Source: Actinomycetospora succinea (GTDB lineage Bacteria > Actinomycetota > Actinomycetes > Mycobacteriales > Pseudonocardiaceae). From it: a DNA stretch of 64,000 nucleotides. The notes beneath the pieces were generated by a model, which was not told the origin of the DNA, did no database searches, and worked only from the letters and a program-made list of their open reading frames with translations. Of this stretch, positions 16,921 through 45,364 are shown one piece after another (positions within the stretch are counted from its first letter, which is position 1; every line of letters starts with the position of its first letter). Made by a program: the position numbers and the translations under genes. Location of the stretch: positions 124,001-188,000 of the forward strand of contig NZ_SNYO01000007.1 of the NCBI RefSeq assembly GCF_004363095.1, written 5' to 3'.

Positions 16921-17976
16921 TCAGAACGCGTAGCGGATCGTCAGCCACGGCGCGTGCCGGGCCACCAGCTCGCGGAACCGCGCGACCGCGCGCCGCTTCA
17001 CGTCGACGCGGTAGCGGACGACGGCGCCGCCGTGCTCCGTGCGCTTGGCCTCCTGGGCCTCGGGGCGCCAGAGCACGTCCTCGGCCTGCGGGTGCCAGCC
17101 GAGGTTCACCTCGTGCAGCCCCTCGTGGTGGGTCAGCAGGATCACCTCGCAGGCGGCCTGGGCCTTCGCGCGCTCCGAGAGCCGGTCGCCGAGCTCGTCG
17201 AGCAGCAGCGCCCACTCGGACTGCCACCGCTCGCGCAGCACCACGGGCGAGAAGTTGAGGTGCACCTCGTAGCCCGCGGCGACGAAGTCGTCGACCGCGG
17301 CGATGCGCTCGTCGATCGAGCTCGTGCGGATGTCGAGCAGCTTGGCGTCGCGGCGCGGCATCAGCGAGAAGCGCACGCGGGTGCCGCCGCGCGGGTCGAG
17401 GGCGAGCAGGTCGCGGTTGACGTGCTTCGTCGCGAACGACGCCTTCGCCCCGTCGAGGCGGGCGAACTGGGCGACGAGGTCGGCGACGTTGTCGCTGACG
17501 CGGGCGTCCACCGAGCAGTCGGAGTTCTCGCCGAGGTCGTAGACCCAGTCGACGGGGTCGCACTGGTTCGCCTCGGGCTTGCGCCCCTGCCGGCCCAGGT
17601 GCCGCGCGATGGTGCGCTGGATCGCGTCGATGTTGGTGAACACGGTGATCGGGTTGGCGTAGCCCTTGCGGCGCGGCACGTAGCAGTACGCGCAGGCCAT
17701 GGCGCACCCGTTGGCGGTCGACGGCGCGATGAAGTCCGCCGAGCGCCCGTTCGGGCGGACCGTGAGCGACTTCTTCTCGCCGAGCACGAGGTGCTCCGCC
17801 TTCACCCGCACCCACCGGGCGACGTTCTCCTCGTCGCCGTGCAGGTCGGGGATCGCCCAGTGCGAGGCGATCTCGACGACCTCGGCGTCGGGGAACCGGG
17901 CGAGGACCTCCTGCCCGCGCAGGGAGGCGAGCGACGCCGGTTCGGCGTGGATCGTCGCGACCTCGAGCAGGCTCAC
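16921..17976 (-). CDS. Spore-photoproduct-lyase-family radical SAM protein
   Basis: The 351-residue protein carries the radical SAM cluster motif CxxxCxxC (Cys91, Cys95, Cys98 in NGCAMACAYCYVPRRKG) within an SPL-type sequence. Family enzymes use S-adenosylmethionine and a 4Fe-4S cluster; the type member repairs thymine dimers of the spore-photoproduct type. Non-sporulating actinobacteria carry homologs of unknown substrate. It is last in the isomerase > GT4 > PIG-L > radical SAM chain and its GTG start overlaps the PIG-L stop by 4 bp. This placement favours a role connected to that glycan pathway or co-expression under stress. Confidence 0.8.
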   Translation of the reverse strand: MSLLEVATIHAEPASLASLRGQEVLARFPDAEVVEIASHWAIPDLHGDEENVARWVRVKAEHLVLGEKKSLTVRPNGRSADFIAPSTANGCAMACAYCYVPRRKGYANPITVFTNIDAIQRTIARHLGRQGRKPEANQCDPVDWVYDLGENSDCSVDARVSDNVADLVAQFARLDGAKASFATKHVNRDLLALDPRGGTRVRFSLMPRRDAKLLDIRTSSIDERIAAVDDFVAAGYEVHLNFSPVVLRERWQSEWALLLDELGDRLSERAKAQAACEVILLTHHEGLHEVNLGWHPQAEDVLWRPEAQEAKRTEHGGAVVRYRVDVKRRAVARFRELVARHAPWLTIRYAF

Positions 17977-18728
17977 GGCTCCAGGGTGCCGATCATCGCC
18001 CGCGCCGTCGCGCCGGCCCGCAGCACCTCCACGGGACGGCCCGCGCCCTCCGCGCGCGCCAGCTCCGCCAGCACCGGCGCCACGTGCTCCGGGCCGCCGA
18101 ACTGGAAGCCGACCTGCGTGGCGTACGCCCGCGCCGCGGCGGCCTTGGTGTCGAGCACGGCGGTGACGTCGACGGCGACGTCGGTGCCGGCGACGCCCGG
18201 TGCGCCGAGGGCGTCCGGATGCCGCACGGCGTAGGGCGTGTCACGCCACCACGCCGTGCGGTCGGGATCCGCGAGCCCGGCGACGACGGCCGTGACGACC
18301 TGGTGGTCCACGTGGTCGCCGACGGCCTGCGGGGCGAGGACGAGGTCGGCGCCCTCGACCCGCCCCCGGACCGCCTCGGTGACCGCGTCGGCCACGTCGT
18401 CGTCCTCGCGGCGCCCCGCGAACAGCGCGGCCGGGGAGTCGTAGCCCCGGTGGGGCGCCTCGAGCAGCCCGCGGTGCTCGCCGCGCACGCCGAGCCGGGC
18501 CAGGGCGGCGGCGTCCTCGTCGCGGCGCAGGGCCATGTAGTCGACGTCGGGGGCGAGGCCCTTGTCGGTCTGGCACGCGAGCGCGAACCCGGTCGGCGCG
18601 TCCACCGAGCCCGTGAACACCGTGAGCACGAGGACGTCGTGCCCGGCCGCGGCGAGGCGCGCGAGGGTGCCGCCGGCGGAGAACACGGCGTCGTCGAGGT
18701 GCGGGCTGACCGCGACGATGCGGCTCAC
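17973..18728 (-). CDS. PIG-L-family N-deacetylase
   Basis: The 251-residue protein begins with a zinc-binding loop AVSPHLDDAVFSAGGTLARL (about 6-25), equivalent to the AHPDD motif, and has the second metal motif GDHVDHQVVTAV at about 145. The family (MshB, BshB, GlcNAc-PI deacetylase) removes acetyl from N-acetylglucosamine conjugates. Immediately upstream is a GT4 glycosyltransferase, the same enzyme pairing as MshA/MshB or BshA/BshB. The GTG start and stop both overlap neighbours by 4 bp, so all genes are translated in fixed ratio. Confidence 0.87.
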   Translation of the reverse strand: MSRIVAVSPHLDDAVFSAGGTLARLAAAGHDVLVLTVFTGSVDAPTGFALACQTDKGLAPDVDYMALRRDEDAAALARLGVRGEHRGLLEAPHRGYDSPAALFAGRREDDDVADAVTEAVRGRVEGADLVLAPQAVGDHVDHQVVTAVVAGLADPDRTAWWRDTPYAVRHPDALGAPGVAGTDVAVDVTAVLDTKAAAARAYATQVGFQFGGPEHVAPVLAELARAEGAGRPVEVLRAGATARAMIGTLEP

Positions 18729-19969
18729 AGCAGGTGCGGCGCCGCGCGGAAGCGGCAGTCGGGGTCGACGGGGACGTCGGGGATCGCGGGCACCGGCACG
18801 TCGCGCACCGCGTCGTAGACGTCGGTGAGCCGGTGCGCGACGACCGGCCACGACCAGCGGGCCCGGACCTCGTCGAGGGCCCGGCGGGCGAGACCGGCGC
18901 GCAGGTCGGCGTCGTCGAGCACGCGGGCGATCCCGTCAGCGAGGGCGGTCGGGTCCTTCGGCGGCACGAGCAGCCCGTTGTCGCCGTCGCGGACGCAGTC
19001 GCGGACGCCGACGACGTCGGTCGACACCACCGGCAGGCCGCTCGCCATCGCCTCGAGCACCGTGTTCGAGAATCCCTCCGCGTAGGTCGGGCTGACGAAG
19101 ACGTCCCCGCGCCGGTAGACCTCGTGCGCGTCCTCGTAGGCCGTGTAGCCGAGCTGGGTGACGTGCTCGTCGAGCCCGAGCTCGGTGACGCGGTCGGCCA
19201 CGGTGTCGGTGTCGGGCCCGATGCCGGAAACGACGAGGTGCAGGCGGCGACCGCGGTCGAGCAGGTCGGCGACGGCGTCGAGCAGGTCGAGCACGCCCTT
19301 CCTGGCGTCGACGCGACCGTGGTAGAGCAGCACGGGCGGGTCGGACAGCGCCCCGGGCTCGCGCGCCGGGGTGAACCGCTCGGTGTCGGTGGCCCCGGAG
19401 ACCACCGTCCAGCGGTCGGGGGCGACGCCGTGGCGCTCCGAGACCTCCGCGGCGAACGACGACGACCCGATGACCAGCGCCGGCGCGTGGGCGAACACCG
19501 CGCGCACGAGCGTCTCGTGGGTCGCGCAGCAGGTGCCCACCCAGTGGCCGTCGCCGCCCTGCACGCTGACGACGGCGGGCAGCCCGAGGTCGTGCGCGGC
19601 CCGCAGCACCGCCAGCCCGTTGGGGTAGGCGTACTGGGCGTGGAGCAGGTCGAACGGTGCCTTCGCGTGCTCGGCGGCGATCGTGTCGCGCATCGTGGCG
19701 ACGTCGGCCTCGAAGTCCGCCGGGCGGCCCTCGACGACCTCCTGCTCGCCGTGCGCCTCGAGCGCGACGACGTGCACGCCGTCGGGCACCCGCTCGGGCG
19801 GCGGCGGGCCGCCGCCGTAGACACCGCGCCCGACGGGGTCGCCGCGGTACTGCGAGACCAGCGTGACGTCGTGGCCCTCGCGCACGAGGTGGCGCAGCAG
19901 GTTCTCCGCGTAGGCGCTCATGCCGGAGACCGCCGGCCAGTAGCGGCGGGAGACGAAGCAGATCCTCAC
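18725..19969 (-). CDS. GT4-family glycosyltransferase
   Basis: The 414-residue retaining GT-B enzyme transfers a sugar from a nucleotide donor. The N-terminal acceptor domain starts ICFVSRRYWPAVSGM and contains LLHAQYAYPNGL. The C-terminal donor domain contains LLYHGRVDARKGVLDLLDAV and the EGFSNTVLEAMASG motif (the E-x7-E pair), followed by GLPVVSTDVVG. The family includes MshA and BshA. The short N-terminal VRICFV beta strand starts right at the GTG at 19969. The acceptor is unknown. Confidence 0.9.
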   Translation of the reverse strand: MRICFVSRRYWPAVSGMSAYAENLLRHLVREGHDVTLVSQYRGDPVGRGVYGGGPPPPERVPDGVHVVALEAHGEQEVVEGRPADFEADVATMRDTIAAEHAKAPFDLLHAQYAYPNGLAVLRAAHDLGLPAVVSVQGGDGHWVGTCCATHETLVRAVFAHAPALVIGSSSFAAEVSERHGVAPDRWTVVSGATDTERFTPAREPGALSDPPVLLYHGRVDARKGVLDLLDAVADLLDRGRRLHLVVSGIGPDTDTVADRVTELGLDEHVTQLGYTAYEDAHEVYRRGDVFVSPTYAEGFSNTVLEAMASGLPVVSTDVVGVRDCVRDGDNGLLVPPKDPTALADGIARVLDDADLRAGLARRALDEVRARWSWPVVAHRLTDVYDAVRDVPVPAIPDVPVDPDCRFRAAPHLL

Positions 19970-20823
19970 GCGCTGATCTCCATTCTCCGGATCGTCTCCA
20001 GGGCGCCCGGGACGAGCGTGTCGGCGCGGTGCGAGTCCCGGGACAGCTCGAACGACACGAGCCCCGGGTGGCGCACCTCGCGCAGCGCCCCGAGCACCGC
20101 GGGCAGGTCCATGTCCCCCTCGCCGGGCGCGCGGTGCTCGTGCACCCCGCGCGGCATGTCCTCGACCGCGACGGCCCCGAGCAGCGGCGCGAACTCGCGC
20201 ACGGCGCCCTCGGGGCTCCAGCGCCCCGAGACGATGCAGTGCCCGGTGTCGAGGGCGAGCGTGATCTCGGGGACGTCGAGCGCCAGGCGCATCCAGTCGT
20301 CGCAGTCCTCGACGAGCATCCCCGGCTCCGGCTCCACGGCGCAGACGACGCCGCGCTCCCGGGCGTGCGCGACGACCTCGCCCACCCCGTCGGCGAGCCA
20401 CCGCCACGCCTCGTCGCGGTCCTGGTCGCCGGCGGGCACGCCGGCCCAGAACGACACCGCCTCGCTGCCGAGGTCGGCGGCGACGTCGACGCAGGTGCGC
20501 AGGAACTCCACGCGCCGCGCCCGCCCGTCGGCGTCACCGGCGATCAGCGTCGGCTGGTGCTTGCGGCGCGGGTCGAGCAGGAAGCGCGCGCCGGTCTCGA
20601 CGACGCTGCCCAGCCCGAGGCCGCGCAGCCGGTCGGCCAGCGCCGCGGTGCGCCGGCCCAGCTCGGGGGCGAACGGATCGTGGTGGGCGACGTCGAGGGT
20701 CAGGGCCACCCCGTCGTAGCCGCAGTCGGCGAGCAGCGCGAGCGCGTCGTCGAGGCGGTGCGAGGTGAGGCCGTTGGTGTTGTAGGCGTAGCGCAGGCGG
20801 TGCTCGTGCGCGGACTCGGACAT
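19966..20823 (-). CDS. Xylose-isomerase-like TIM-barrel sugar isomerase/epimerase
   Basis: The 285-residue protein has the AP-endonuclease-2/xylose isomerase barrel. Metal-ligand positions appear as CAVEPEPGM (about 161-169), LALDTGHCIVSG (about 188-199), VAVEDMPRGVHEHR (about 217-230) and VSFELSRDSH. These are divalent-metal aldose-ketose isomerases, epimerases or lyases; the substrate is unknown. It is the first gene of the four-gene chain that ends with the radical SAM protein and faces the IclR regulator across a 303-bp region. Confidence 0.82.
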   Translation of the reverse strand: MSESAHEHRLRYAYNTNGLTSHRLDDALALLADCGYDGVALTLDVAHHDPFAPELGRRTAALADRLRGLGLGSVVETGARFLLDPRRKHQPTLIAGDADGRARRVEFLRTCVDVAADLGSEAVSFWAGVPAGDQDRDEAWRWLADGVGEVVAHARERGVVCAVEPEPGMLVEDCDDWMRLALDVPEITLALDTGHCIVSGRWSPEGAVREFAPLLGAVAVEDMPRGVHEHRAPGEGDMDLPAVLGALREVRHPGLVSFELSRDSHRADTLVPGALETIRRMEISA

Positions 20824-21126: not shown

Positions 21127-21996
21127 ATGACGGAATCGCGCCACGGCCGCGGCGTCGGCGGGGGTCGCTCCCTGAAGACCGCTGCCGAGGCGCTGGCGGC
21201 GCTGCGCTTCCTCGGGGCCGCCGAGGACGGCATCACCGCCGAGGCGCTGGCCGCCGAGCTCGGCAAGAGCACGGCCACCGCCCGCTACCTGCTCAACACC
21301 CTGTGCCAGGAGGGCTTCGCGGTCCGCGACGGCCGCAGCGGCACCTTCCGGCTCCAGGAGAGCCCGCCGTGGGGTGACGCGTGGGGTGACACCGACGCGC
21401 CCCACGACCTGACGCGCCACGAGCTGCCCGACCGGCTCTCGGACGCGGTCACCGACCTGTACTGGCGCACCCGGCAGCGCACCTACCTCGCGCGGTGGGA
21501 GGACGGCGACGACAGCACGGTCATCGTCGACGCCCGCGGCCACCAGGGCCTGCCCCGCGTCCCCGACCTCACCGAGCGCATCCCGCTCGCCTCGGCCCAC
21601 GCCCTCGCGGTGACGAAGGCGCTGATCGCCTCCGCCGGGTCGCGCGCGGTCGCCCTGCGCGAGCGCTCCGAGCTGTCGGCCTTCACCGGCACCACCATCA
21701 CGAGCGCCCCGGCGATCGAGCTCGAGCTCGCGCGGGTCCGCAGGCGTGGCTACGCCGTGGACCGCGAGGAGTACGCCGAGGGCTTCTGTTGCATCGGCGC
21801 GCCGATCTTCGCCCCCGACGGGCGGGTCGCCGCCGGCATCGCGATCTCCACGCCTGCGCGGCGCTTCGCCACGCACGCCGAAGAGCTCACCGGCGCCGTT
21901 CGCGACGTCGCTGCGACCGCCACGCGCGGCTGGTCGGAGTCCGACACGGGACTCCCACCGCCGCAGCCGGCCGACCCCGTACCCCCCGGGTACTGA
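21127..21996 (+). CDS. IclR-like transcriptional regulator next to the prm cluster
   Basis: The 289-residue protein has an N-terminal winged helix (about 15-75; ITAEALAAELGKSTATARYLL is the recognition region) and a C-terminal IclR-type ligand domain (about 100-270) with GYAVDREEYAEGFCCIGAPIF. The N-terminus shares a distinctive pattern with the second IclR gene at 35260: RSLKTAA, AAELGKSxATARY, NTLC, and PPWG. GGAGG lies 10 bp before the ATG. It reads towards prmA 129 bp downstream and probably controls the alkane operon, the glycan operon, or both. Confidence 0.85.
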   Translation: MTESRHGRGVGGGRSLKTAAEALAALRFLGAAEDGITAEALAAELGKSTATARYLLNTLCQEGFAVRDGRSGTFRLQESPPWGDAWGDTDAPHDLTRHELPDRLSDAVTDLYWRTRQRTYLARWEDGDDSTVIVDARGHQGLPRVPDLTERIPLASAHALAVTKALIASAGSRAVALRERSELSAFTGTTITSAPAIELELARVRRRGYAVDREEYAEGFCCIGAPIFAPDGRVAAGIAISTPARRFATHAEELTGAVRDVAATATRGWSESDTGLPPPQPADPVPPGY

Positions 21997-29424: not shown

Positions 29425-29466
29425 ACGGCCCCAGATTCTGGAGCAGTACAGGAAGGACACCACCAC

Positions 29467-31217: not shown

Positions 31218-31253
31218 AGCAGGCCCGGTCCCCTCGAGAGGAGTGCTCCCGCC

Positions 31254-32482: not shown

Positions 32483-32730
32483 TCGAGAAGTACAACCCCT
32501 GGACCGTCGTCAACCTCGTCTTCGAGCACCTCGCCGACCAGGGCCTGCACCCGGTCCTGGGGGAGAACGGCGACCCCTCGGCCGCGGCGGCCGAGCTGCT
32601 GAGCTCGCTGGGCATCACCCCGGGCGACCCCTCGTGGGGGGAGGGGCAGGACGCCGAGCGCGTGCGGGAGGACCTCGCGGCGCTGCGGGCGGCGTTCGAC
32701 CCGGTCGACTCCACCGACTCCCGGGAGTAG
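32479..32730 (+). CDS. Small unknown protein coupled to prm accessory genes
   Basis: The 83-residue protein starts VIEKYNPWTVVNLVFEHLAD at a GTG that overlaps the previous stop by 4 bp. The rest, with LLSSLGITPGDPSWGEGQ and an acidic C-terminus, looks helical and soluble. No family was recognised. Short length and strict coupling suggest a partner subunit or chaperone of the preceding protein. Confidence 0.65.
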   Translation: MIEKYNPWTVVNLVFEHLADQGLHPVLGENGDPSAAAAELLSSLGITPGDPSWGEGQDAERVREDLAALRAAFDPVDSTDSRE

Positions 32731-33416: not shown

Positions 33417-35279
33417 ATGGACGGACGCGCCCAGAGCGCCCTCGGTCGCGCGCGAGAGTTCTTCGTGGACCGGGGCAGCGTGAGCGCCTCCGGCATCGTC
33501 CGTCCCGAGATCGTCGACTCCTGGGAGCGTTCGCGGAACGCCGGGGTCGACGCGAGCCAGCTCGACCTGCCCTACGAGCCCGACCTCGACTTCGACGGCA
33601 GCCTGTCCAACTGCGCCCGCCCGGTGCTCGACGACCTCGCCGAGCGGCTCTCGGGCATGTCCGTGGCCGTGGTGCTCACCGACGCCGACGGCCGGGTGCT
33701 CGAGCGGCGGGTCGGCGAGGGCGAGCTGCAGCGCCGCCTGGACGCCATCTCGCTCGCGCCCGGGTTCAGCTACGCCGAGGAGTTCGCCGGCACCAACGGG
33801 GTGGGCACCTCGCTCGAGGGGGCGATCCCGGCGCTGGTCGTCGGGGCCGAGCACTTCAGCGAGCGCCTGCAGGCGTTCGCGTGCGCGGGCGCCCCGGTGC
33901 GGGGCCCGGACGGCGCGCTGGCCGGCATCCTCGACGTCACCTGCCTGCGCTCCGAGGCCAACGACCTCATGCGCTTCCTCGCCCAGCAGGCCGCCACCGA
34001 CATCGAGGACGTCCTGCGCGAGCGCGGCGGCGTCGGCATCCGCCGGGTCATGGCCGCGTTCCGCGCGACATGCGCGCGCACGCGCGGGCCGGTCCTCGCG
34101 CTCACCGACGAGCTCGTGATGGTCAACCGCGCGGCCCGCGGCCTCTCCGCGCTCGACCAGGAGCGGGTCACGGTGCGGGCGATGGAGCTGGGCGTCGGCG
34201 GGCGTCCCCACCAGGACCGTGTGCTGCTCACCGACGGCCCCGCCCGTCTGATGATCACCCCGGTGCCGGCCGAGCGGCCGGTGGGCGTGGTCGTGGAGGT
34301 CGTGCCCAGCCGCAGCAGTCTGCGGCTCGCGGGCGGCGACGACGCGAGCCGGACCTCCCCCCGCACCGCCGAGCTGCCCGCCCCGCCCTCGCCCGCCGGG
34401 TCCTCGTCGGCCTGGTTCCCGCCGTCTCCCTCGTCCGTGGAGCGCCCGCTGCCCGGGCTCGCCGGCGACTCGCGGCCGTGGCGCACCGTCGCGGGGGCGC
34501 TGCGTGCCGCCGCCGGCGCGGCCCGGAGCACCGTGGTGCTCGGCGAGCCGGGCACCGGCAAGGCAGCCGCCGTCCGCGCCGCCCACTCCGAGGTCCGGCC
34601 CGGGGCGCGCTGGGTCGCCGTCGACGGGTCCGACCCGGAGGCGGCCGTGACGCTCGCCGGCTACGCCGCGGAGGCGTCCACGTCCGGTGCGGGCGCGGTC
34701 ACCGTGGTCGTGCGGCACACCGAGGCCCTCGACGCGGCCGGGGTGGGCGCGCTGACCTCCCTGCTCGCCGAGGTCCCGTCGTCGTGGTGGGTGGTCGGCC
34801 TGCTCACCGCGGAGCGGCCGCCCGACGATGGGCCGCTCGGCGGGATGCTCGCCGGGTTCGCCACGTCCGTGCTGGTCGAGCCCCTGCGCCGCCGGCCCGA
34901 CGACATCCCGCTCATCGCCGCGGCCCTCATCGCGCGGCTCGCGCCGTCGCGGCGCGCGCGGTGCACGCCCGAGACCGCGGCCCTGCTCACCGGGGCCCGC
35001 TGGCCCGGCAACGTCACCCAGCTCGCCGGGGTGCTGCGCCGCGCGCTCGCCGCGCGGCCCGCCGGCGACGTCGAGGCGGCCGACCTGCCCGCCGAGTTCG
35101 CGGTCAGCGGCACCCGCCGGCGTCTCACGCCGCTGGAGACCGCCGAGCGCGACCTCATCGTGTCCGCGCTGGTCGAGGCGAACGGCAACCGCTCGCAGGC
35201 GGCGAGCGCGCTGGGGATCGGCCGCGCGACGCTCTACCGGCGCCTGCGGGCCTTCGGCATCACCGACGTGGGCCGGTGA
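33417..35279 (+). CDS. AcoR/MimR-like GAF-AAA-Fis activator with degenerate AAA+ domain
   Basis: The 620-residue regulator resembles MimR of mycobacterial mimABCD clusters. An N-terminal GAF-like sensor (about 50-200; FSYAEEFAGTNGVGTSLEG) is followed by a second sensor-like region. A shortened AAA+ domain (about 350-520) has Walker A GEPGTGKAA, but no GAFTGA loop is visible, so it should not contact sigma-54. A C-terminal Fis-type helix-turn-helix follows (NRSQAASALGIGRATLYRR, near 587-605). It probably activates prm genes in response to substrate or product. GAGG lies 6 bp before the ATG at 33417. Its 3' end overlaps the convergent IclR gene by 20 bp. Confidence 0.85.
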   Translation: MDGRAQSALGRAREFFVDRGSVSASGIVRPEIVDSWERSRNAGVDASQLDLPYEPDLDFDGSLSNCARPVLDDLAERLSGMSVAVVLTDADGRVLERRVGEGELQRRLDAISLAPGFSYAEEFAGTNGVGTSLEGAIPALVVGAEHFSERLQAFACAGAPVRGPDGALAGILDVTCLRSEANDLMRFLAQQAATDIEDVLRERGGVGIRRVMAAFRATCARTRGPVLALTDELVMVNRAARGLSALDQERVTVRAMELGVGGRPHQDRVLLTDGPARLMITPVPAERPVGVVVEVVPSRSSLRLAGGDDASRTSPRTAELPAPPSPAGSSSAWFPPSPSSVERPLPGLAGDSRPWRTVAGALRAAAGAARSTVVLGEPGTGKAAAVRAAHSEVRPGARWVAVDGSDPEAAVTLAGYAAEASTSGAGAVTVVVRHTEALDAAGVGALTSLLAEVPSSWWVVGLLTAERPPDDGPLGGMLAGFATSVLVEPLRRRPDDIPLIAAALIARLAPSRRARCTPETAALLTGARWPGNVTQLAGVLRRALAARPAGDVEAADLPAEFAVSGTRRRLTPLETAERDLIVSALVEANGNRSQAASALGIGRATLYRRLRAFGITDVGR

Positions 35280-36174
35280 ACCCGAACTCGCGGTCCAGCG
35301 GGGCGTCGCGCTCCACCGTCTCGTTCGGGCGCGCGGGCGGCATGCCGACCTGACGCGCGCCGATCTCCCCGGCCCACTGCGCGCTCGCCCGCGCGGCCAC
35401 CGCGCGGACGGCCTCGACGAGCTCGTCCTCGTCGAGCGCCAGCCGGCGCGCCGAGCAGGAGAGGCCCAGGGCGACCGTGGCGGCGCCGGACGGCGAGACG
35501 ACCGGGGCGGCGATCGAGGCGAAGCCGCCCGCGAACTCCTCGCGGTCCAGGGCGACGCCGTCGCGGCGGACGTCCTCGAGCTCGGCCTGCAGCGTGCTGA
35601 GGTCGGTGACCGTCGCCGGGGTCAGGGCGGTGAGCGCGTCGCCCTCCTCGTCGACCGCCTCGCGGTACTCCGCCGAGGTCGCGAGCAGGACCTTCGTCAT
35701 GGCGAGGGCGTGCGCGTGGATCGGCGGCACGTGGGTGCCGAGCCCCGGGTGCTTCGCGAGGCCCTGGTGACCGCGCGAGTCGGTGACGGTCGCGACCACG
35801 GTGCCCGTGCGGCGCACGAGGTACGAGCGCTGGCGGGTACGGCGGTAGAGCTCGGTGGTGGCCTCGGCCAGCACGGCGCCGGGGTCCGGGTCGCCGGGCA
35901 CGGGGCTCGCGGCGGGGACCGTGCCCCAGTGGCCCCACGGCGGCGCGTCGGACAGGCGGCAGCGCCCGGAGCCCTCGCGCTCGGCGTAGCCGGCCTCGCA
36001 CAAGGTGTTGATCATGTAGCGGGCGGTCGCGGCGCTCTTGCCGAGCTCCTCGGCGAGGTCGCTGGCGGACAGGCCGTCCGGGTGGTCCCCGAGCAGGCGC
36101 AGCGCGCGCAGGACCGTCGCCGCGGTCTTCAGCGACCGCGAACCACCGCCTGCGGGCACCACGTCGTCGTCCAC
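35260..36174 (-). CDS. Second IclR-like transcriptional regulator
   Basis: The 304-residue protein has a winged helix (about 14-70; LSASDLAEELGKSAATARYMI) and an IclR ligand domain (about 100-270; VALDREEFAGGFASIAAPVV). Its pattern of conserved blocks matches the first IclR protein at 21127, so the two are paralogs bracketing the prm cluster. The GTG start lies 36 bp from a GTCTCA-GTG-TGAGAC palindrome that could be its operator. It is divergent from nothing close; the next gene upstream is the YcaO gene, on the same strand, whose 3' end lies 113 bp away. Confidence 0.85.
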   Translation of the reverse strand: MDDDVVPAGGGSRSLKTAATVLRALRLLGDHPDGLSASDLAEELGKSAATARYMINTLCEAGYAEREGSGRCRLSDAPPWGHWGTVPAASPVPGDPDPGAVLAEATTELYRRTRQRSYLVRRTGTVVATVTDSRGHQGLAKHPGLGTHVPPIHAHALAMTKVLLATSAEYREAVDEEGDALTALTPATVTDLSTLQAELEDVRRDGVALDREEFAGGFASIAAPVVSPSGAATVALGLSCSARRLALDEDELVEAVRAVAARASAQWAGEIGARQVGMPPARPNETVERDAPLDREFGFTGPRR

Positions 36175-36286: not shown

Positions 36287-37765
36287 TCATCGCAGGTCGA
36301 CGGGCTCCCCGGCCCCCGCGCGGGCCAGCGCGTGGCGCGTCGGCTCGCGGTAGAGGGGGTAGAGCTCGCCCACCGTGCGGTCGACCGCGGCGCGGTCCAG
36401 CCAGGCCGGACCGCCCAGCCGGGCGCGCCCCTCGGACGTCAGGGCCACAGGCTGCGCGCCCGCGTGGGGCGGGTCGCCCAGCCCCGCGAGACCGGTGTCG
36501 AGCAGACGTTCGACGCCCCGGGCCCCGATCCGCCCGTAGGACATCGTCTCGACCTCGAGCCCCGGCACGATGACCTTCGCGGTCACCGCCGACCCCGCGT
36601 CGGCGACCACGGTCAGCACGTCGAAGCCGTCGAGGCGCGCGAGGAGGTCGTCGAGCAGCGCGCGGGGCTCGTCGAGCCCGGGGGTGTGCGGGAGGTCGGT
36701 GAACGCCACCGTCTCCCGCTGCGCGAGGACCGTGGGCGCCAGCAGGTCGCGCAGGGCGGCGGGCCCGCACGCGGTCCAGTCCGCCATCGCCTCGAACGCC
36801 CGCCGCTCCTGCGGCGGCACCGGGTGGGCCAGCTCGCGCTCCCAGTACCGGGCGTCGAACAGCGGGCGCACGGTGTCCAGGTCGGCGTGCGCGACCAGCT
36901 TGCGCACGCGCGCGGAGCAGAACTCGAGCAGCGCCTTCTGCAGGGCGACCTCGCGGTCGGGGTGCGCGGCCTCCCCGCAGGCGGTCACCGAGATCGGGTG
37001 CGGCGCGTCGGCGGGGTCGGTGTCGTGGCCGACGACGTGCAGGTCGGTCACCCCGAAGGCCGTCGAGGCGAGCTTCGGGACCACGGTGATGCCGACGGCG
37101 GCGAGGTGGTCGAGCAGGCGCCGGGTGTCCGGGTCGGTCACGCCCCCGGTGTCGATGACGATCCCGCGGTCGAGCGCGCGGAAGGCCGTGGCGTTCCCGT
37201 CGCGCTGGAGCAGCTCGCCGAGCGCGTGACCGACGGCCCGCTCGACGGTGTCCCCGGCGCCGCAGCCGTTGGTGATCACGGTGACGAGCCGCTCGTCGGC
37301 GGGCTGCCAGTCGAGGTCGACCGGGTAGGCCGCGGCGAACTCCGCGGGGACGAGCACCTCCTCGCCGGTGCGCCACCGCGTCGTCGGCAGCCACCAGCGG
37401 GGCCGGTCCGGGTCGTACGCGGTGCCCGCGGGCAGGACGAGGGAGACCGGGTCGACGACGCGGTCGCCGCCGCGCACCGCTCGCAGCGCGGTGTAGGAGT
37501 CGCGCACCGGCGCGAGCTCGCGCAGCCGCCGCGACAGCAGCATCTCCTCGGCGAGCTCGGCGTGCGCCGCCACCCGGGCGCGCTCGGTCGACAGGCCGTA
37601 GCCGAAGGCGCCGCTGCGCGGCCACTCGCCCGCGGGGTCGGCGTGGTCGGCGGAGACCACGGCGACCCCCGTTCGGTCGGCGGCGGAGAGCTCGGTGTCG
37701 CCGACGTCGCCGGGTGGCAGCGCGGCGTCGAGGCCCGCGGTCACGTCGTCCAGGGAGGCCGTCAC
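36287..37765 (-). CDS. YcaO-domain protein
   Basis: The 492-residue protein shows both YcaO hallmark helices: AHAELAEEMLLSRRL (about 68-82) and TNGCGAGDTVERAVGHALGE (166-185) ending in LLQRD. YcaO enzymes use ATP to activate backbone amides, forming azolines, thioamides or amidines, usually in ribosomal peptides. No TfuA, E1-like or dehydrogenase partner and no candidate precursor peptide is adjacent, so a non-peptide or distant substrate is possible. The GTG start overlaps the MBL gene stop by 4 bp; it is the last of six coupled genes. The C-terminal third is less typical of known YcaOs. Confidence 0.82.
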   Translation of the reverse strand: MTASLDDVTAGLDAALPPGDVGDTELSAADRTGVAVVSADHADPAGEWPRSGAFGYGLSTERARVAAHAELAEEMLLSRRLRELAPVRDSYTALRAVRGGDRVVDPVSLVLPAGTAYDPDRPRWWLPTTRWRTGEEVLVPAEFAAAYPVDLDWQPADERLVTVITNGCGAGDTVERAVGHALGELLQRDGNATAFRALDRGIVIDTGGVTDPDTRRLLDHLAAVGITVVPKLASTAFGVTDLHVVGHDTDPADAPHPISVTACGEAAHPDREVALQKALLEFCSARVRKLVAHADLDTVRPLFDARYWERELAHPVPPQERRAFEAMADWTACGPAALRDLLAPTVLAQRETVAFTDLPHTPGLDEPRALLDDLLARLDGFDVLTVVADAGSAVTAKVIVPGLEVETMSYGRIGARGVERLLDTGLAGLGDPPHAGAQPVALTSEGRARLGGPAWLDRAAVDRTVGELYPLYREPTRHALARAGAGEPVDLR

Positions 37766-38592
37766 CCGAGCTCCTCCAGCGGGATCGGCCCGGCCACCGG
37801 CTGCGCGGACAGCAGCCGGTCGTAGAGCGCGAGGACCGTCTTGGTCGAGATGTGCGGCGCGTACTCGAACGGCGTCGCGACCGCCTCGAAGTCGAGCGCC
37901 TCGATGACGGCGTAGGCGTCGCGGATCTCCTGATGGGAGAGCGGGATCTGCGCGTGGTAGGCCTTGTGGGCCGACAGCCCGACCGTGGCGCCGTCGGCGT
38001 CGAAGCTCGGCTTGAGCATGTCGCCGCAGAAGAGGATGCCCCGGCGCTCGTCGTGCAGGACGTTGTGGCCGTCGAAGTGCCCGCCGGTGCGGTGGGCGAC
38101 GAGGCCGGGCGCGAACGCGTGGCGGTCGTCGAGGGGCCAGGTCACGCGGAACGCCTTGGTCCACTCCAGGTCCCGCACGCCGATGCCGAGCACCGGCGGG
38201 GCGAGCTCGTCCTGGAGCTGGAAGAGCGCGCCGTAGCCGTGGACGTGGCTGGCGCCGAGCGCGACGAGCCCGCCGCGGCGGCGCAGCTCGGCGATCGCCG
38301 CGTCGGGGTAGAAGCCGGCGCCCTCGAAGCCGACGAGGCCGTTGTCGGTCTCGATCACCCAGCCGCAGGTGCCGAGCCCGACCTGCGGCTCGCACCAGAA
38401 GGCGGTGACGCCCGGCGTGACCTCCTCCCACCGCGCCTCGCGGCCGGCGGCGAGGTCGTCGAACGCGTGGAACTCCCAGCCGTCCTCGGGCAGGGCGTTG
38501 CGGACGTCGACGCAGACCGGGCACTGCGGCGGGACGTCGAACCAGCGCTGCCAGTGGCCGCAGTTGGTGCAGGTCCAGGGGCTCAGGGGCAT
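37762..38592 (-). CDS. MBL-fold protein with N-terminal zinc ribbon
   Basis: The 276-residue protein starts with a rubredoxin-like zinc ribbon (CTNCGHW ... CPVCVDV, about 7-30), then a metallo-beta-lactamase domain. Metal motifs are altered: the canonical HxHxDH reads SHVHGYG, GHTPG reads GGHFDGHN, while LFCGDML keeps the Asp. It may bind one metal or none and act in another reaction than hydrolysis. The start overlaps the oxidoreductase stop by 10 bp. Context ties it to the inositol/YcaO operon. Confidence 0.75.
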   Translation of the reverse strand: MPLSPWTCTNCGHWQRWFDVPPQCPVCVDVRNALPEDGWEFHAFDDLAAGREARWEEVTPGVTAFWCEPQVGLGTCGWVIETDNGLVGFEGAGFYPDAAIAELRRRGGLVALGASHVHGYGALFQLQDELAPPVLGIGVRDLEWTKAFRVTWPLDDRHAFAPGLVAHRTGGHFDGHNVLHDERRGILFCGDMLKPSFDADGATVGLSAHKAYHAQIPLSHQEIRDAYAVIEALDFEAVATPFEYAPHISTKTVLALYDRLLSAQPVAGPIPLEELG

Positions 38593-39563
38593 GCCGCCTC
38601 CATCAGCAGGGTGTGCAGCGCGAGGTCGCGGTGCAGCGGGTACGGCCACGGCGCCTCGCCGCGGACGGCGGCGCCGAACGCCGCCAGCTGCCGCGTGAAC
38701 GGGCCGGTCCCGGTGTCGAACGCGACGGGTGCGGCGGCGCCGGTCGTCGCGTCGATGCGGGTGAGCGTGCCGCCGGGGTCCTGGCCGAGGGTGTCCTCGG
38801 CGACGAGCTGGGCCCGGGTGCCGACGACCTCGAGCCGCCGGCGCGGCAGCGGGTCGGCGGTGGAGAAGCTGACATGGTGTGACAGCAGCGTGCCGCTCGC
38901 GGTGCGGCCGGCGAGGACCGCGGTGTCGTCGACGCCCGGCGCGTAGGCGTGGACCCGCGTCGCGGTCAGCGCGACGAGGTCGACGACGTCCTCGCCGAGC
39001 ACGCACCCGGTGAGGTCGAGGCCGTGCGGGGCGAGGTCGATCATCGCGCCGCCGCCCGCCCGCGCGGGGTCCACCCGCCAGTTGTCCCGGCCGCCCACCG
39101 GCGTGCGCCAGTCCGGCGGCAGCCAGCAGCCGTAGACGATCCGCACGGTGGTGACGACGCCCAGGTCGCCGGCCGCGACCCGCTGCGCGATCACCTCGTG
39201 CGCGGGGTGGAAGCGCTGGTCGAACGCGGTGCCGGCGAGCAGGCCCTCGGTCGCGGCGACCATCTCCTTCGCCGTCGGCACGTCGTGGGCGAGCGGCTTC
39301 TCGCACAGCACCGGGAGGCCGGCGGCCGCGACCCGCTCCACGACCGGCGCGTGCGCGTGGTTCGGGGTGGCGACGTAGACGGCGTCGAGGCCCGGGGCGG
39401 CGAGCAGGTCGTCGAGGTCGGCGTAGACCGGCGCGAGCCCGTCGAGCGCCGCCGGGTCCCGGTCGTGCACGCCGACGAGGTGCGCGGCGGGGTCGGCGGC
39501 GACGGCGGGGAGCACGTGGTCGCGGGCCACCCACCCGGCGCCGACCACGCCCCAGCCCGTCAC
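38583..39563 (-). CDS. Gfo/Idh/MocA-family oxidoreductase
   Basis: The 326-residue NAD(P)-dependent dehydrogenase has the N-terminal Rossmann motif WGVVGAGWVARDHVLPAV (about 3-20), the family EKPLAHD motif (Lys about 96) and a C-terminal substrate domain with GGGAMIDLAPHGLDL. The family typically oxidises cyclitols or sugars, including myo- and scyllo-inositol, which fits the inositol-phosphate synthase at the operon head. It is coupled to the methyltransferase gene (GTGA overlap). Confidence 0.88.
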   Translation of the reverse strand: MTGWGVVGAGWVARDHVLPAVAADPAAHLVGVHDRDPAALDGLAPVYADLDDLLAAPGLDAVYVATPNHAHAPVVERVAAAGLPVLCEKPLAHDVPTAKEMVAATEGLLAGTAFDQRFHPAHEVIAQRVAAGDLGVVTTVRIVYGCWLPPDWRTPVGGRDNWRVDPARAGGGAMIDLAPHGLDLTGCVLGEDVVDLVALTATRVHAYAPGVDDTAVLAGRTASGTLLSHHVSFSTADPLPRRRLEVVGTRAQLVAEDTLGQDPGGTLTRIDATTGAAAPVAFDTGTGPFTRQLAAFGAAVRGEAPWPYPLHRDLALHTLLMEAACP

Positions 39564-40672
39564 CAACTCTCCGGCAGATCGACCAGCAGCCGGCGCGCCA
39601 CGGCATCGTCGGGCAGCGGGTCGGGCCATCGCTCGGGCAGGTAGGTCGCGGCGCGCGGGCCGTACTCGGCGGCCCAGACGTCGTTCGGCCACCGGCGCAC
39701 GCCGTCGGCGTAGAGGGGGTTCGGGCGCAGGTCGGCGTCGGTCGCCGGGTCCAGCAGTGCGGGCTCACCCGCGAAGCCGGTGAGGTCGCGGGCCAGCGCG
39801 ACGGCCTCGGTGTCGGCGAGGTCCTCGGCCGGCGCCGGCCGCGGGAGGCGTCGCTCGAGCGTCGCCGCGGTCAGCTCTTCCTCGCCGTAGCAGGACGCCT
39901 CGGGCAGGAGCGCGGCCCAGGACTCGGGCGGGCGCGGGTGCCCGGGCTGGCCGACGTTGTGGCAGTGCGCGGCGACCACGGCCCCGCCGGGTCCGGCGTG
40001 CCCGGCGGCCGTCGCGAGCACCGCCGCCGGGTCGTCGAGGAAGTAGAGGACGTCGTGCGCGGCGACGTACGCGCCCTCGGCGGGCGGCACCGGCCAGGGG
40101 TGCGCGAGGTCGGCGCAGACGAGGTCGACGTGCGCGGGCACCACGAAGCGGCGGGCGAGCCAGAGCTTGGCGAAGACGACGTCGACGCCGGTCAGGTCCC
40201 GCTCGCCGTGCTGCGCGAGGCGGCGCAGGAGGTGCCCGGCGCCACAGGCGAGGTCGAGCACGGGACGCCCGGCCGGCGGGTGCGCCGCGGTCAGGGCGAG
40301 GACGGCGAGCCCCGAGGGGTCGTGGTCGCGGTGCAGGAAGTAGTCGCCGACCCGCCCGAGCCCGAGGCCCGTGACGGCCTCGCGCAGCGAGGTGGCGTGC
40401 CGGGTCGCCCGGAGCTGCTCGGCGGGCGGCGGGGGCTGGTCCCACCAGTCGTCGTTGTCGGCCAGCAGCACGGCCGCGGCGTCGTCCGGGCGGCCGTCGT
40501 CGAGGGCGGCGAGCGCGCGGCCGCGGACCTCCTCGCGCCCGGCGCGCAGGTACGGGACGCCGTCGAGCACCGGCCACCGCGTCGCCCCGTCGGTGAGGCT
40601 GTGCGGCGCGTCGGCGTGCAGCGCGGCGCCGGTCACGGGGCTGACCAGCGCCGACGCGGTCGAGACGCTCAC
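39560..40672 (-). CDS. Class I SAM methyltransferase with Trm112-like N-terminus
   Basis: The 370-residue protein starts with a Trm112/UPF0434-like strand set (SPVTGAALHADAPHSL then WPVLDGVPYL, about 10-42). A class I methyltransferase follows: SAM motif I VLDLACGAGHLLRRLA near 145-160, acidic loop LTGVDVVFAKL and motif IV YVAAHDVLYFLDDP. It ends in an extra C-terminal region. Possible acceptors include an inositol hydroxyl or amine. The GTG start overlaps the HD gene stop by 4 bp. Confidence 0.82.
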   Translation of the reverse strand: MSVSTASALVSPVTGAALHADAPHSLTDGATRWPVLDGVPYLRAGREEVRGRALAALDDGRPDDAAAVLLADNDDWWDQPPPPAEQLRATRHATSLREAVTGLGLGRVGDYFLHRDHDPSGLAVLALTAAHPPAGRPVLDLACGAGHLLRRLAQHGERDLTGVDVVFAKLWLARRFVVPAHVDLVCADLAHPWPVPPAEGAYVAAHDVLYFLDDPAAVLATAAGHAGPGGAVVAAHCHNVGQPGHPRPPESWAALLPEASCYGEEELTAATLERRLPRPAPAEDLADTEAVALARDLTGFAGEPALLDPATDADLRPNPLYADGVRRWPNDVWAAEYGPRAATYLPERWPDPLPDDAVARRLLVDLPESW

Positions 40673-41589
40673 GGCAGCAGCCCCGCCGCCGCGAGCACCG
40701 CGTTCTGGTGCTCCTGGACCGGCGAGGCGTGCACGAGCTCGAGGTCGTCGAGCGCCTCGCGGACCGTGAACGACGCCGCCCGCGCGTGGTGGTGCACCTG
40801 CAGCACGCGGTCGAGGACGTCGGCGGCGTGGAACGTCGCGCCGAGCGGGGTCTCGGCGTCGGCGCGGGCGGCGAGCAGGGGACGGACGCGGTCGGCGAGC
40901 TCGCCGGGCAGCTCGCCGAGCGCCCGCGCGGTGAGCCGGTCGACCACGGCGTCGAGGTGCTCGCCGAGCAGGGTCTCGCCGGCGAACCCGGCGTCGGGCA
41001 GCACGGCGTTGTGCAGGTGGTGGGCGAGCCCGAGCAGGAAGGCGTCGCCGCGGTCGGCGCCGTGGTCCTCGGCGAGCAGGGCGCCGTACACGGCCACCGC
41101 CCAGCAGTGCTCGCCGTGGTCCTCCGGCGGTTCGGCGATCAGGCGCGCCCGGCCCGGCGCCGTCGCCCCGGCCCGGGGCTGGCGGCGCAGCGCGTCGATG
41201 AACGCCGGGAGCGCCACGGCGGCGCCCGCCGGCGGTGGCGCCGCGCGCAGCCGGTCCAGCGTGGCGGGGTGCACGACCCCGGCGGCGACCTCGTCCACCG
41301 CGCGCCGCAGGACCACTCCCGCGGCGTCCCCGTCGAGACCGGCCTCGGCGAGGACGGCGGCGTCGATCCCGGCGAGGCGGGCGCCCGCCACGGCCGCCGC
41401 GGTCTCCCGGTCCGCCACGGCCGTCGGGTCGGCGCCGCCGACGAGCGCCGACCACGCCCGGGCGAACGCGCGCGACGCCATCGACCCCTCGGCGTCCGCG
41501 GTGCGGACGCGCTTGAGGTCGCCGACCTCGCGGAACAGTCCGGGGACCGCGGCGTACCGGGCGGAGGGCGCCACCAGGGCCGTCGTCAC
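40669..41589 (-). CDS. HD-domain-like protein
   Basis: The 306-residue helical protein contains an HD-type metal pattern: EDHGEHCWAVAVYGALLAED, then LGLAHHLHNAVLPD, then FHAADVLDRVLQVHHHA (about 163-285). The usual HD doublet reads HHLHN, so metal coordination may differ. HD proteins are often phosphohydrolases, and a phosphatase step would suit an inositol phosphate pathway. It overlaps the neighbouring genes by 4 bp on both sides. Confidence 0.55.
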   Translation of the reverse strand: MTTALVAPSARYAAVPGLFREVGDLKRVRTADAEGSMASRAFARAWSALVGGADPTAVADRETAAAVAGARLAGIDAAVLAEAGLDGDAAGVVLRRAVDEVAAGVVHPATLDRLRAAPPPAGAAVALPAFIDALRRQPRAGATAPGRARLIAEPPEDHGEHCWAVAVYGALLAEDHGADRGDAFLLGLAHHLHNAVLPDAGFAGETLLGEHLDAVVDRLTARALGELPGELADRVRPLLAARADAETPLGATFHAADVLDRVLQVHHHARAASFTVREALDDLELVHASPVQEHQNAVLAAAGLLP

Positions 41590-42770
41590 GCGGCGCCCGC
41601 GGCGATCCACTCGCGCAGCACCTGCTCCTGGCGGTACAGGGCGTGCTCGGGACGCGAGCCGTCGCGGGTGGTCGGCGCCTTGAAGAAGTAGCCGAGCTGC
41701 TCCTGCGCGCCACCCTCGCCGCGGCGCTGGGCCTCGACGACGAGCCGCACGAGCTCGAGCACCAGCGGCGCCGCGAGCACGGAGTCGCGGGCCATGAAGT
41801 CGACCTTGATCTGCATCCGCTGGCCGAGGAAGCCGACCAGGTCGATGTTGTCCCAGGCCTCCTTCTCGTCACCGCGCGGGCGGTAGTAGTCGATGCGCAC
41901 GACGTGGTCGCCGACCTCGTAGCCGAGGATGTCGTCGAGCACCGAGCCCTTCGTCGCGACCTTGCTGGACAGCGAGTCGGGGTCGTCGAGGATCTCGCCG
42001 TCGCGGTTGCCGAGGATGTTCGTCGAGTACCAGCCGTCGACGGTCAGGGCGCGCGAGCGGAACGCCGGCGCGAGCACCGTCTTCATCATCGTCTGGCCGG
42101 TCTTGCCGTCCTTGCCGGCGACGGGCACCCCGCGCTGCTCGGCGAGCTCGAGCAGGGCGGGGACGTCGGCGGCCGCGCTCGGCGTGAAGTTGACGTACGG
42201 GCTGCCCTCGGTGATCGCGGCGTAGGCGTAGAGCATGCCCGGGGTGATCGCGGCGTCGTCGACGTCGAGGGCCTTCTCGAAGCCGTCGGCGGTCGCCAGC
42301 GCGGGCAGGGTCAGGTCCGGCCAGCGCTCGGTGGACGCGAGGTTGACGACGACGAGGTCGTCGAGCCCCTGCTCCTCGCGGAAGCGGCGCAGGTCCGCGG
42401 CGATGTGCGCCACGCGGTCGCGCAGGCCCGCGACGGCGACCAGGTTGGTGCCGCGGGCGTTGCGGCAGTACTCGGGGTCGGCGACGGCCGGCCACGGCGC
42501 GATGCCGGTCAGCGCCGGGCCCGCGGCCTCGATCTGCCGGTCGTCGAGCACGCGGTGGACCTGCGCGGCCTTGGCCAGGTCGTCGCCCTCCACGTCCCAG
42601 CCGGCGAACACCAGCGAGGTGTAGGGCACCAGGCCCTCGGCGTCGGCGAGCGGGAGGCCCTCGGTGCCCGCGGCGCCCAGCTTCATCATCTCGACGCCGG
42701 CGACCGCGGTGGTGGCCACTGCCCCACCGAGCCCGACGATCGCCACTCCCGTGCGAGCGTTCTCCGCCAC
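41586..42770 (-). CDS. Inositol-phosphate-synthase-like enzyme heading the YcaO operon
   Basis: The 394-residue protein matches myo-inositol-1-phosphate synthase (glucose-6-phosphate to inositol phosphate, EC 5.5.1.4). It has the NAD fold VAIVGLGGAVATTAVAGVEM (about 9-28), GKDGKTGQTMMKTVL (about 185-200) and YSTNILGNRDGEILDDPDS. The N-terminal pattern differs from the actinobacterial housekeeping Ino1, which has VGVGNCASS, so this is a second type, likely for a specialised product. GAGGAGG lies 6 bp before the GTG. It is first in the six-gene operon and is divergent from the PspC gene. Confidence 0.83.
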   Translation of the reverse strand: MAENARTGVAIVGLGGAVATTAVAGVEMMKLGAAGTEGLPLADAEGLVPYTSLVFAGWDVEGDDLAKAAQVHRVLDDRQIEAAGPALTGIAPWPAVADPEYCRNARGTNLVAVAGLRDRVAHIAADLRRFREEQGLDDLVVVNLASTERWPDLTLPALATADGFEKALDVDDAAITPGMLYAYAAITEGSPYVNFTPSAAADVPALLELAEQRGVPVAGKDGKTGQTMMKTVLAPAFRSRALTVDGWYSTNILGNRDGEILDDPDSLSSKVATKGSVLDDILGYEVGDHVVRIDYYRPRGDEKEAWDNIDLVGFLGQRMQIKVDFMARDSVLAAPLVLELVRLVVEAQRRGEGGAQEQLGYFFKAPTTRDGSRPEHALYRQEQVLREWIAAGAA

Positions 42771-44180: not shown

Positions 44181-44343
44181 GCTCGGCGAGCTGACCGCGG
44201 GTGGTGGCGGCGTAGGCCGCCGCCACCCGTTCGTCGAACTCCGCAACGGTCAGCCGGCCGTTGCCCATCGCGCGCTGGAGACGCTCCACCACGATCTCGC
44301 GTTCGGCGTCGGACGCCCGGACGTCTGGCACGTCCGCCATCAT
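44149..44343 (-). CDS. Short DUF1707 (SHOCT-like) protein
   Basis: The 64-residue protein consists almost only of a DUF1707 domain: VRASDAEREIVVERLQRAM then GRLTVAEFDERVAAAYAA. Usually this is an N-terminal module of longer membrane proteins, so this stand-alone form is short for the family. Its ATG overlaps the glutaminase stop (ATGA). A second ATG, one codon in, is equally possible. Confidence 0.8.
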   Translation of the reverse strand: MMADVPDVRASDAEREIVVERLQRAMGNGRLTVAEFDERVAAAYAATTRGQLAELTKDLPGHLW

Positions 44344-45353
44344 CCCCCGCCGTCTCCGGGCAGCGTCGGCTGCGCGACCCGCCCGAAGCGCGAGTCGGCG
44401 GGGTCGGCGAACACGTGCAGACCGAACGTCTCGGAGAGCTCGCGGCACAGGGCGACGCCGCGCACCGAGTTGCCGTGCACGTCGAGGCCCGGCGAGTAGA
44501 CGCCGAAACCGAAGTAGCGGGGCAGCACGCAGACGATGTCGCCGGAGACCCCGCTCTTGGCGGGGATGCCGACCTCGTTGGCCCACTGGCCCGCGGCGTC
44601 GTACATGCCGCAGGTCATCATCACGCTGACGATGTCGCGGACGTACTCCCGGGCGACCGCGCGCTCGCCGGTGAGCGGGTTCCGGCCACCGTTGGCGAGC
44701 GTGGCGCCCATGACGCTGAGGTCGGCCGCGGTCACCGTGATGGAACAGGCCGAGAGGTAGGTCTCGACGACCTCGTCGATGTCCCCGGTGATCATCCCGA
44801 GCGAGCGCATGACGTAGCAGAGCCCGAGGTTGCGGTCGTTGCTGCGCAGCTGCTGGCGCAGGATGCGCTGGTCGACGGCGAGGTTCGGGTTGCCGGAGTA
44901 GGCGCGGTAGCGCTCGAGGATCCGGTCGACCTTCTCGTCGACGTCCCGGCCGGCCACGAGGTTCGCCGCGACCAGCGCGCCCGCGTTGATCATCGGGTTG
45001 TAGGGCCGGTGGTGGACCTCGTCGAAGGTGATCGAGTTGAACGGGTCGCCCGAGGGCTCGACGCCGACGCGGGCGAGGGTCGCTTCGGCGCCGTTGTCCT
45101 CGAGGGCCAGGCCGTAGGTGAAGACCTTGGAGACCGAGTGCAGCGGGAAGGGCACCGAGCAGTCGCCGGCCTGCCACTGCGTGCCGTCGATGTTGGTGCC
45201 GGCGAGCCCGAAGAAGTGGCGCTGGTCGTCCGGCGCGTCCTCCGGGTAGTAGCTGACGACCTGGTCCTCACCGAAGCTCCCGAACCTGGCGTGGAGCTCG
45301 TCGAGCTGCTTGCGGACGAGTTCCTGTTCTCCCACGGCGACCACGTCCGACAT
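44340..45353 (-). CDS. glsA: Glutaminase A, copy 1
   Basis: The 337-residue enzyme hydrolyses glutamine to glutamate and ammonia (EC 3.5.1.2). The beta-lactamase-like fold shows the Ser-x-x-Lys nucleophile motif in PLHSVSKVFTYGLALEDNG (about 71-89), NPMINAGAL, the Tyr region, and VSVMMTCGMYDAAGQWANEVG followed by GIPAKSGVSGDI. The sequence is full length. It lies 11 bp after a second glutaminase gene and looks like a tandem duplicate with diverged ends. Confidence 0.93.
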   Translation of the reverse strand: MSDVVAVGEQELVRKQLDELHARFGSFGEDQVVSYYPEDAPDDQRHFFGLAGTNIDGTQWQAGDCSVPFPLHSVSKVFTYGLALEDNGAEATLARVGVEPSGDPFNSITFDEVHHRPYNPMINAGALVAANLVAGRDVDEKVDRILERYRAYSGNPNLAVDQRILRQQLRSNDRNLGLCYVMRSLGMITGDIDEVVETYLSACSITVTAADLSVMGATLANGGRNPLTGERAVAREYVRDIVSVMMTCGMYDAAGQWANEVGIPAKSGVSGDIVCVLPRYFGFGVYSPGLDVHGNSVRGVALCRELSETFGLHVFADPADSRFGRVAQPTLPGDGGG

Positions 45354-45364
45354 TCTGCCCGTGA

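Follow-up and report, generated by a model that had tools for sequence, protein, structure and literature searches.

The window analysed here, a stretch of 64,000 nucleotides from contig NZ_SNYO01000007.1 of Actinomycetospora succinea, carries a compact block of six genes that runs from an inositol-phosphate synthase (INO) through an HD-like protein (HD), an S-adenosylmethionine (SAM) methyltransferase (MT), a Gfo/Idh/MocA dehydrogenase (GFO) and a metallo-beta-lactamase-fold protein (MBL) to YcaO, the only YcaO found in this genome. Successive genes overlap by 4, 4, 4, 10 and 4 bp as judged from the geometry of starts and stops, and both these overlaps and the family assignments, already given in a preliminary description of the locus made from its sequence, are confirmed by the coordinates and by Pfam respectively. 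INO matches NAD_binding_5 (213 bits) and Inos-1-P_synth (113 bits), HD matches HD_3 (28 bits), MT Methyltransf_25 (42 bits), GFO GFO_IDH_MocA (78 bits), MBL Lactamase_B (26 bits, preceded by a CxxC...CxxC zinc ribbon) and YcaO the domain PF02624 (154 bits). The limits that had been drawn, 36287 to 42770, are too narrow: three further genes of the set, encoding an AP_endonuc_2 protein (TIM), a family 4 glycosyltransferase (GT4) and a PIG-L deacetylase, lie at 17973-20823, each pair overlapping by 4 bp, and in the neighbourhoods of related loci, roughly 20 kb in extent, these three follow YcaO.

A search for YcaO in 200 genomes of the order gave matches in 43, of which 22 were strong (E <= 5.4e-84, own genome included), and 12 loci came out of a scan of genome contigs, of which ten belong to Actinomycetospora, one to a Leeuwenhoekiella metagenome-assembled genome (MAG) and one, a weak match, to Amycolatopsis. 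The nearest relatives of the window YcaO are those of Actinomycetospora, that of A. lutea being 95 % identical. All nine genes are present in 20 loci, namely 19 of the 41 examined (loci are designated here by L numbers) and a plasmid of Roseomonas haemaphysalidis, and every one of these has the same order, INO-HD-MT-GFO-MBL-YcaO-TIM-GT4-PIGL. The 19 are the window, four further Actinomycetospora loci, one from family f15, seven from f16, five from f32 and the Leeuwenhoekiella MAG, where f15 and f16 are families of the order to which Actinomycetospora belongs and f32 is a family outside its class; 18 are contiguous and the window is split into two blocks, a split that looks derived, since the Actinomycetospora loci L061-L064 carry the nine genes contiguously. 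The set is thus found in Actinomycetota, Bacteroidota and, with Roseomonas, Alphaproteobacteria, and because gene order is kept across phyla the six-gene arrangement is not a chance one. The other loci of the 41 include the split Actinomycetospora type, ten with YcaO only, and partial loci or loci at contig ends (L038, L046, L052, L058, L088 and L120).

Some loci depart from the full set. Plasmids of Methylobacterium aquaticum and M. bullatum have eight genes, MBL not being found, and a Hymenobacter volaticus plasmid also has eight, with MT not found and the GFO and GT4 frames split. The loci in which MT could not be found are L120 and L152. The GFO gene of L122 is broken, and in L123 (f32) GFO and MBL occupy one uninterrupted frame (9526-11541) that possibly encodes a fusion protein. 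Nine weak MBL relatives (L125-L133, about 25-32 % identity) have no YcaO nearby in the surroundings fetched. We note also that open reading frames (ORFs) resembling those of iron-siderophore ATP-binding cassette (ABC) transporters, as judged by eye, adjoin the cluster in L119 (1-4134) and L123 (612-4000) of f32. In the Leeuwenhoekiella MAG the G+C fraction of the cluster (0.461) differs from that of its flanks (0.412 and 0.424), so that horizontal gain is likely; among 397 genomes of that family four have a YcaO match, and the close one is in the MAG itself. Horizontal spread is likewise pointed to by the presence of the cluster on plasmids of two Methylobacterium species, Hymenobacter and Roseomonas (L150-L153), for which the cluster/flank G+C values are 0.724/0.733, 0.674/0.684, 0.629/0.551 and 0.693/0.659.

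The preliminary description held the synthase to be unlike housekeeping Ino1, and with 40 bits against the mycothiol_INO1 model TIGR03450 (cut-off 638) INO is by this measure not of the housekeeping actinobacterial type. Nor is it the sole Ino1 of the genome, a case that the description had allowed for: a separate INO1 encoded elsewhere scores 691 bits against the same cut-off. Among solved structures INO comes nearest to 7nwr, at 294 bits, and 1u1i, at 211 bits, which we take to be enzymes of Bacteroides and of Archaeoglobus fulgidus, and in the alignment INO keeps the residues corresponding to those of 1u1i that are presumably catalytic, with D221, N251, K270, K274, K303 and D329 opposite D225, N255, K274, K278, K306 and D332. 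The motifs EKP and DLAPH are kept by GFO across 26 aligned sequences, and PIG-L has SPHLDD and GxHVDH in 21/21. In MBL the sequence HxHxYG replaces HxHxDH in all 27 aligned sequences, with loss of the DH, and the HHxHN of HD is invariant in 28; these conserved alterations suggest unusual metal sites. No sequence of L120 entered these motif alignments, nor did GFO from L122 and L123 or PIG-L from L122, their frames being broken or fused.

The structure model of GT4 has a mean predicted local distance difference test score (pLDDT) of 85, and its closest structures by Foldseek are MshA and BshA. In the genome's own MshA the acceptor stretches contain lysine and arginine and, as we take it, hold phosphate-binding residues; the cluster GT4 has no counterpart of these stretches, and for this reason a dephosphorylated, modified cyclitol is the likelier acceptor. 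A YcaO model built from ten sequences is poor (pLDDT 42), and by sequence MJ1094 was the one YcaO of solved structure to match.

YcaO proteins are familiar from the biosynthesis of ribosomally synthesized and post-translationally modified peptides (RiPPs), and the preliminary description had seen neither a precursor peptide nor TfuA in the window; it left room for a clear precursor in the same operon elsewhere, and none came to light. Among 361 short ORFs in the 1.5-kb flanks and gaps of 19 loci there were no matches across lineages, although a fast-evolving precursor could escape such a comparison; as a control, 27 of 27 pieces of 45 residues cut from the nine proteins matched between at least two lineages. 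TfuA was found in none of 21 carrier genomes, and E1-like or RRE families are absent from the nine proteins by Pfam and NCBIfam, the rest of the genomes not having been scanned for them. YcaO itself reaches 74 bits against the SagD-family model TIGR03604, for which the cut-off is 219. The best reading of these sequence comparisons is that the locus is not an ordinary YcaO-type RiPP system of the azole, thioamide or amidine kind.

Ten genomes have a close YcaO and no synthase of the INO type (L037, L041, L042, L043, L045, L048, L050, L051, L053 and L054). In eight of these loci YcaO has a sugar ABC transporter close by, and nine encode a conserved protein, F12. F12 has no match in Pfam or NCBIfam; when compared with solved structures it gave Csy2 chains at an E-value of 0.008 over about 48 residues, which we take as chance, followed by poly-N-acetylglucosamine deacetylases (E-values 0.14 and 0.24), to which the similarity is weak. 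Nine of the ten YcaO-only sequences group in a single, well-supported clade (99/98) of the YcaO tree, nested within the nine-gene sequences, and L054 is placed elsewhere; L046 was kept in this tree and omitted when the conservation of YcaO was read from the alignment.

Features of the window are collected in Table 1. One IclR paralogue stands beside each half of the split cluster, and an IclR gene also follows YcaO in six other Actinomycetospora loci (L055-L060); among loci of that type the three-gene block was located in A. lemnae only (L086). Between the two blocks, at 22141-32730, is a propane/phenol-type monooxygenase operon that includes a MimD effector subunit, GroEL, an alcohol dehydrogenase and an amidohydrolase. 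A gene of the spore photoproduct lyase family overlaps the PIG-L gene by 4 bp and is associated with the set, outside its core of nine. Elsewhere in the genome there is an MshA (653 bits, cut-off 462.5), and PIG-L matches number 12 with the copy in the cluster. A tandem pair of glutaminase A genes is present at 44340-46387, and this family also occurs twice in five other Actinomycetospora loci.

Table 1. Genes of the two blocks and their neighbours in the window
Feature	Coordinates	Strand	Basis or remark
INO, myo-inositol-phosphate synthase of 7nwr/1u1i type	41586..42770	-	Pfam; PDB 7nwr, 1u1i
HD-like protein, HHxHN instead of HD	40669..41589	-	Pfam HD_3
MT, SAM methyltransferase	39560..40672	-	Pfam
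GFO, Gfo/Idh/MocA dehydrogenase (motifs EKP, DLAPH)	38583..39563	-	Pfam
MBL, zinc-ribbon metallo-beta-lactamase fold, HxHxYG instead of HxHxDH	37762..38592	-	Pfam
YcaO	36287..37765	-	Pfam
IclR-type regulator after six-gene block	35260..36174	-	Pfam
Second IclR, 47 % identical to first	21127..21996	+	Divergent from three-gene block
TIM, AP_endonuc_2 sugar isomerase/epimerase-like	19966..20823	-	Pfam 121 bits
GT4 glycosyltransferase near MshA/BshA, tail CRFRxxxHLL	18725..19969	-	Foldseek best match MshA
PIG-L deacetylase (SPHLDD, GxHVDH)	17973..18728	-	Pfam 64 bits
Spore photoproduct lyase family protein	16921..17976	-	TIGR03886 588 bits, cut-off 438

From the gene set, its order and distribution, the families of its enzymes and the conservation of several active-site residues we infer a scheme of substrates and successive steps, with roles for HD and MBL and a reaction for YcaO. 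On balance we favour the view that the locus is a dedicated small-molecule pathway, outside RiPP biosynthesis, of nine enzymes that are here split six and three; its product is probably a sugar-linked inositol compound, a glucosaminyl-cyclitol. INO would convert glucose 6-phosphate to inositol phosphate and the HD protein would remove the phosphate, after which GFO would oxidise a ring hydroxyl, TIM would isomerise or dehydrate the ketone and MT, in most lineages, would O-methylate. GT4 would then add N-acetylglucosamine (GlcNAc) from UDP-GlcNAc and PIG-L would take off the acetyl group, the MshA and BshA pathways likewise pairing a GT4 enzyme with a PIG-L deacetylase. In the last step YcaO, at the expense of ATP, would activate the glucosaminyl-cyclitol at a carbonyl or amide, where an amine or sulfur nucleophile would replace the oxygen. 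The modified-inositol pathway with YcaO and without a RiPP precursor that the preliminary description proposed is supported in outline, its YcaO chemistry remaining conjectural as is ours; the free modified inositol that it took as the product is not retained, because TIM, GT4 and PIG-L, which it missed, shift the prediction to a glucosaminyl-cyclitol.

Several observations weigh against this scheme. MT or MBL is missing from some loci, and in one genome (G149) YcaO is about 7 kb away from INO-HD, with other genes between. The roles assigned to HD and MBL are weak because their metal motifs are altered, the acceptor of GT4 may not be an inositol phosphate, and the substrate of YcaO may be a protein. 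Moreover, since the YcaO-only loci have sugar transporters and F12, that substrate need not be a cyclitol.

The GT4 protein itself offers a candidate peptide. Following a variable spacer, it ends in a tail, C-R-[F/Y]-R...H-L-L, that is found in 26/26 sequences (22 + 4) from three phyla, at 18728-18757 in the window and also in L065 and L150-L153, and in a RiPP-like or protein-modifying system this CRFRxxxHLL segment might serve YcaO as substrate or docking peptide; a folded protein is modified by the YcaO of Escherichia coli (PMC13063428). We nevertheless think such a system unlikely. No short ORF is common to different lineages, the tail is modelled with moderate confidence on GT4 itself (pLDDT 78 then 65), no GT4 of this kind appears in the stretches fetched around the ten YcaO-only loci (the search did not extend to the rest of those genomes), and five F12 proteins inspected are without a CRFRxxxHLL-like tail. 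It is very improbable that the locus serves the catabolism or uptake of inositol-type compounds and not their biosynthesis. The IclR regulators of the window do resemble catabolic ones, and iol catabolism does employ enzymes of the Gfo/Idh/MocA and AP_endonuc_2 families, but INO, GT4 and the methyltransferase are enzymes for building and not for degrading; GFO reaches 88 bits against IolG TIGR04380 (cut-off 355), the IolE model gives 20 (cut-off 290), and models for IolB, IolC, IolD and IolJ match none of the nine proteins in NCBIfam-type scans. Anti-phage defence was considered and set aside, PADLOC having matched, of ten proteins, only MT to part of mad2 (44 bits), as was an Ebo cluster, no Ebo-named family appearing in NCBIfam scans (for GT4, among the best 25 of 41 matches).

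In mycosporine pathways an amine is attached by an ATP-grasp enzyme, and YcaO might do the same here: dehydration and methylation of an inositol ketone would give a mycosporine-like cyclohexenone, YcaO would activate the vinylogous oxygen for attachment of the amine, and addition of the sugar and deacetylation would complete an ultraviolet (UV)-absorbing sunscreen. That the product is such a compound we regard as possible but doubtful. Spore-photoproduct-lyase-family genes beside the cluster in the window, A. lemnae (L086), f32 (L122, at some 2.5 kb from INO) and Roseomonas (L153) speak for it; Roseomonas has two, which lie about 1.5 and 2.6 kb beyond PIG-L on its downstream side and share 59 % and 26 % identity with that of the window. 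A neighbour of this family in three lineages hints at UV or desiccation protection, yet the gene is within the fetched stretch in only 4/44 loci (L086, L122, L153 and the locus of the window itself, L087). Of 31 genomes with a close YcaO, 19 have a member of the lyase family above the cut-off (13/21 nine-gene and 6/10 YcaO-only genomes), versus none of 20 same-family genomes lacking a YcaO match; the other eight nine-gene genomes have none above it, and the presence of the family in one of 12 other Actinomycetota, which were chosen for weak MBL matches and not randomly and in which YcaO was not searched, also counts against the sunscreen. Relatedness confounds these counts, because f16 holds 11 of the 19 positives and the comparison includes no YcaO-free f16 genome; in those 11 the gene is on another contig or, in six, on that of YcaO at a distance of 55-97 kb. 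The YcaO-only loci, with their sugar importers, do not fit a sunscreen. Methylobacterium is reported to make UVA-absorbing compounds including methylobamine (PMC9664959, PMC12573535), which is in keeping with a sunscreen, and we claim no identity with methylobamine. Similarly doubtful is the larger proposal of a new, horizontally spread class of photoprotectants, in which a glucosamine-linked, inositol-derived chromophore would have its conjugated nitrogen (or sulfur) installed by YcaO; if true, this would be, to our knowledge, the first YcaO in Actinobacteria to act on a sugar or cyclitol and not on a peptide, in some lineages together with repair genes of the spore photoproduct lyase family.

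For the dedicated glucosaminyl-cyclitol pathway that we favour, the enzymes are of known kinds, and as far as we have found their combination and its conservation across phyla are undescribed: no account of such a cluster of YcaO and inositol-phosphate synthase was found in the literature covered, most subscription journals lying outside its scope. According to a 2021 paper, nothing indicated that YcaO enzymes of Actinobacteria function outside RiPPs (PMC8442711). Since three phyla share the nine genes in a single order and with no detectable precursor, a non-RiPP YcaO in Actinobacteria becomes directly testable, the prediction being a glucosamine-cyclitol metabolite made by a mycothiol-like assembly line, which might help its producers to survive UV or drought. 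Carriers known by name include Actinomycetospora species and Roseomonas haemaphysalidis, with eight of the genes in Methylobacterium aquaticum and M. bullatum.

YcaO enzymes also act outside RiPPs in thioamidation of McrA and uL16 (for uL16, PMC13063428) and in 6-thioguanine biosynthesis. The present locus resembles these in having a YcaO and no precursor peptide; it differs in that TfuA was not found, and we know of no inositol and glycosyl genes in YcaO loci of the McrA, uL16 or 6-thioguanine kind. With streptamidine (ami) it shares an actinobacterial standalone YcaO accompanied by a hydrolase; the ami locus differs in having a precursor AmiA together with AmiB and the dehydrogenase AmiE (PMC8442711), whereas in the present cluster no precursor candidate was found. 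Another related system is the aminocyclitol branch of hygromycin A (Hyg18, Hyg25, Hyg17, Hyg8, Hyg6 and Hyg7), in which an inositol-phosphate synthase, a phosphatase, an inositol dehydrogenase and a methyltransferase are proposed to act on the cyclitol, and for which the portion of the description available names no YcaO, GT4 or PIG-L (PMC10949010). The hygromycin-type trio of synthase, dehydrogenase and methyltransferase families is present in our cluster, but by Pfam there is no aminotransferase family among the nine proteins.

For the bacillithiol enzymes the scores are 84 bits against a cut-off of 273.7 (BshA) and 35 against 182.5 (BshB), and the corresponding values for mycothiol are 40 against 638 (INO1), 106 against 462.5 (MshA) and 23 against 224 (MshB); scores so far below the model cut-offs led us to reject a variant of either pathway. 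The genome moreover has its own INO1 and MshA apart from the cluster, no cysteine ligase family of the MshC kind is present among the nine proteins by Pfam and NCBIfam, and GFO, TIM, MT, MBL, HD and YcaO go beyond what mycothiol biosynthesis (INO1, MshA, MshB and MshC) requires. The mycothiol pathway nonetheless combines a synthase, a GT4 enzyme and a PIG-L protein with an ATP-dependent enzyme, and our cluster is like it in its inositol-phosphate synthase, its GT4, which is nearest to MshA, and its PIG-L deacetylase, so that the last three proposed steps, GlcNAc transfer, de-N-acetylation and an ATP-dependent reaction, would resemble the mycothiol assembly line.

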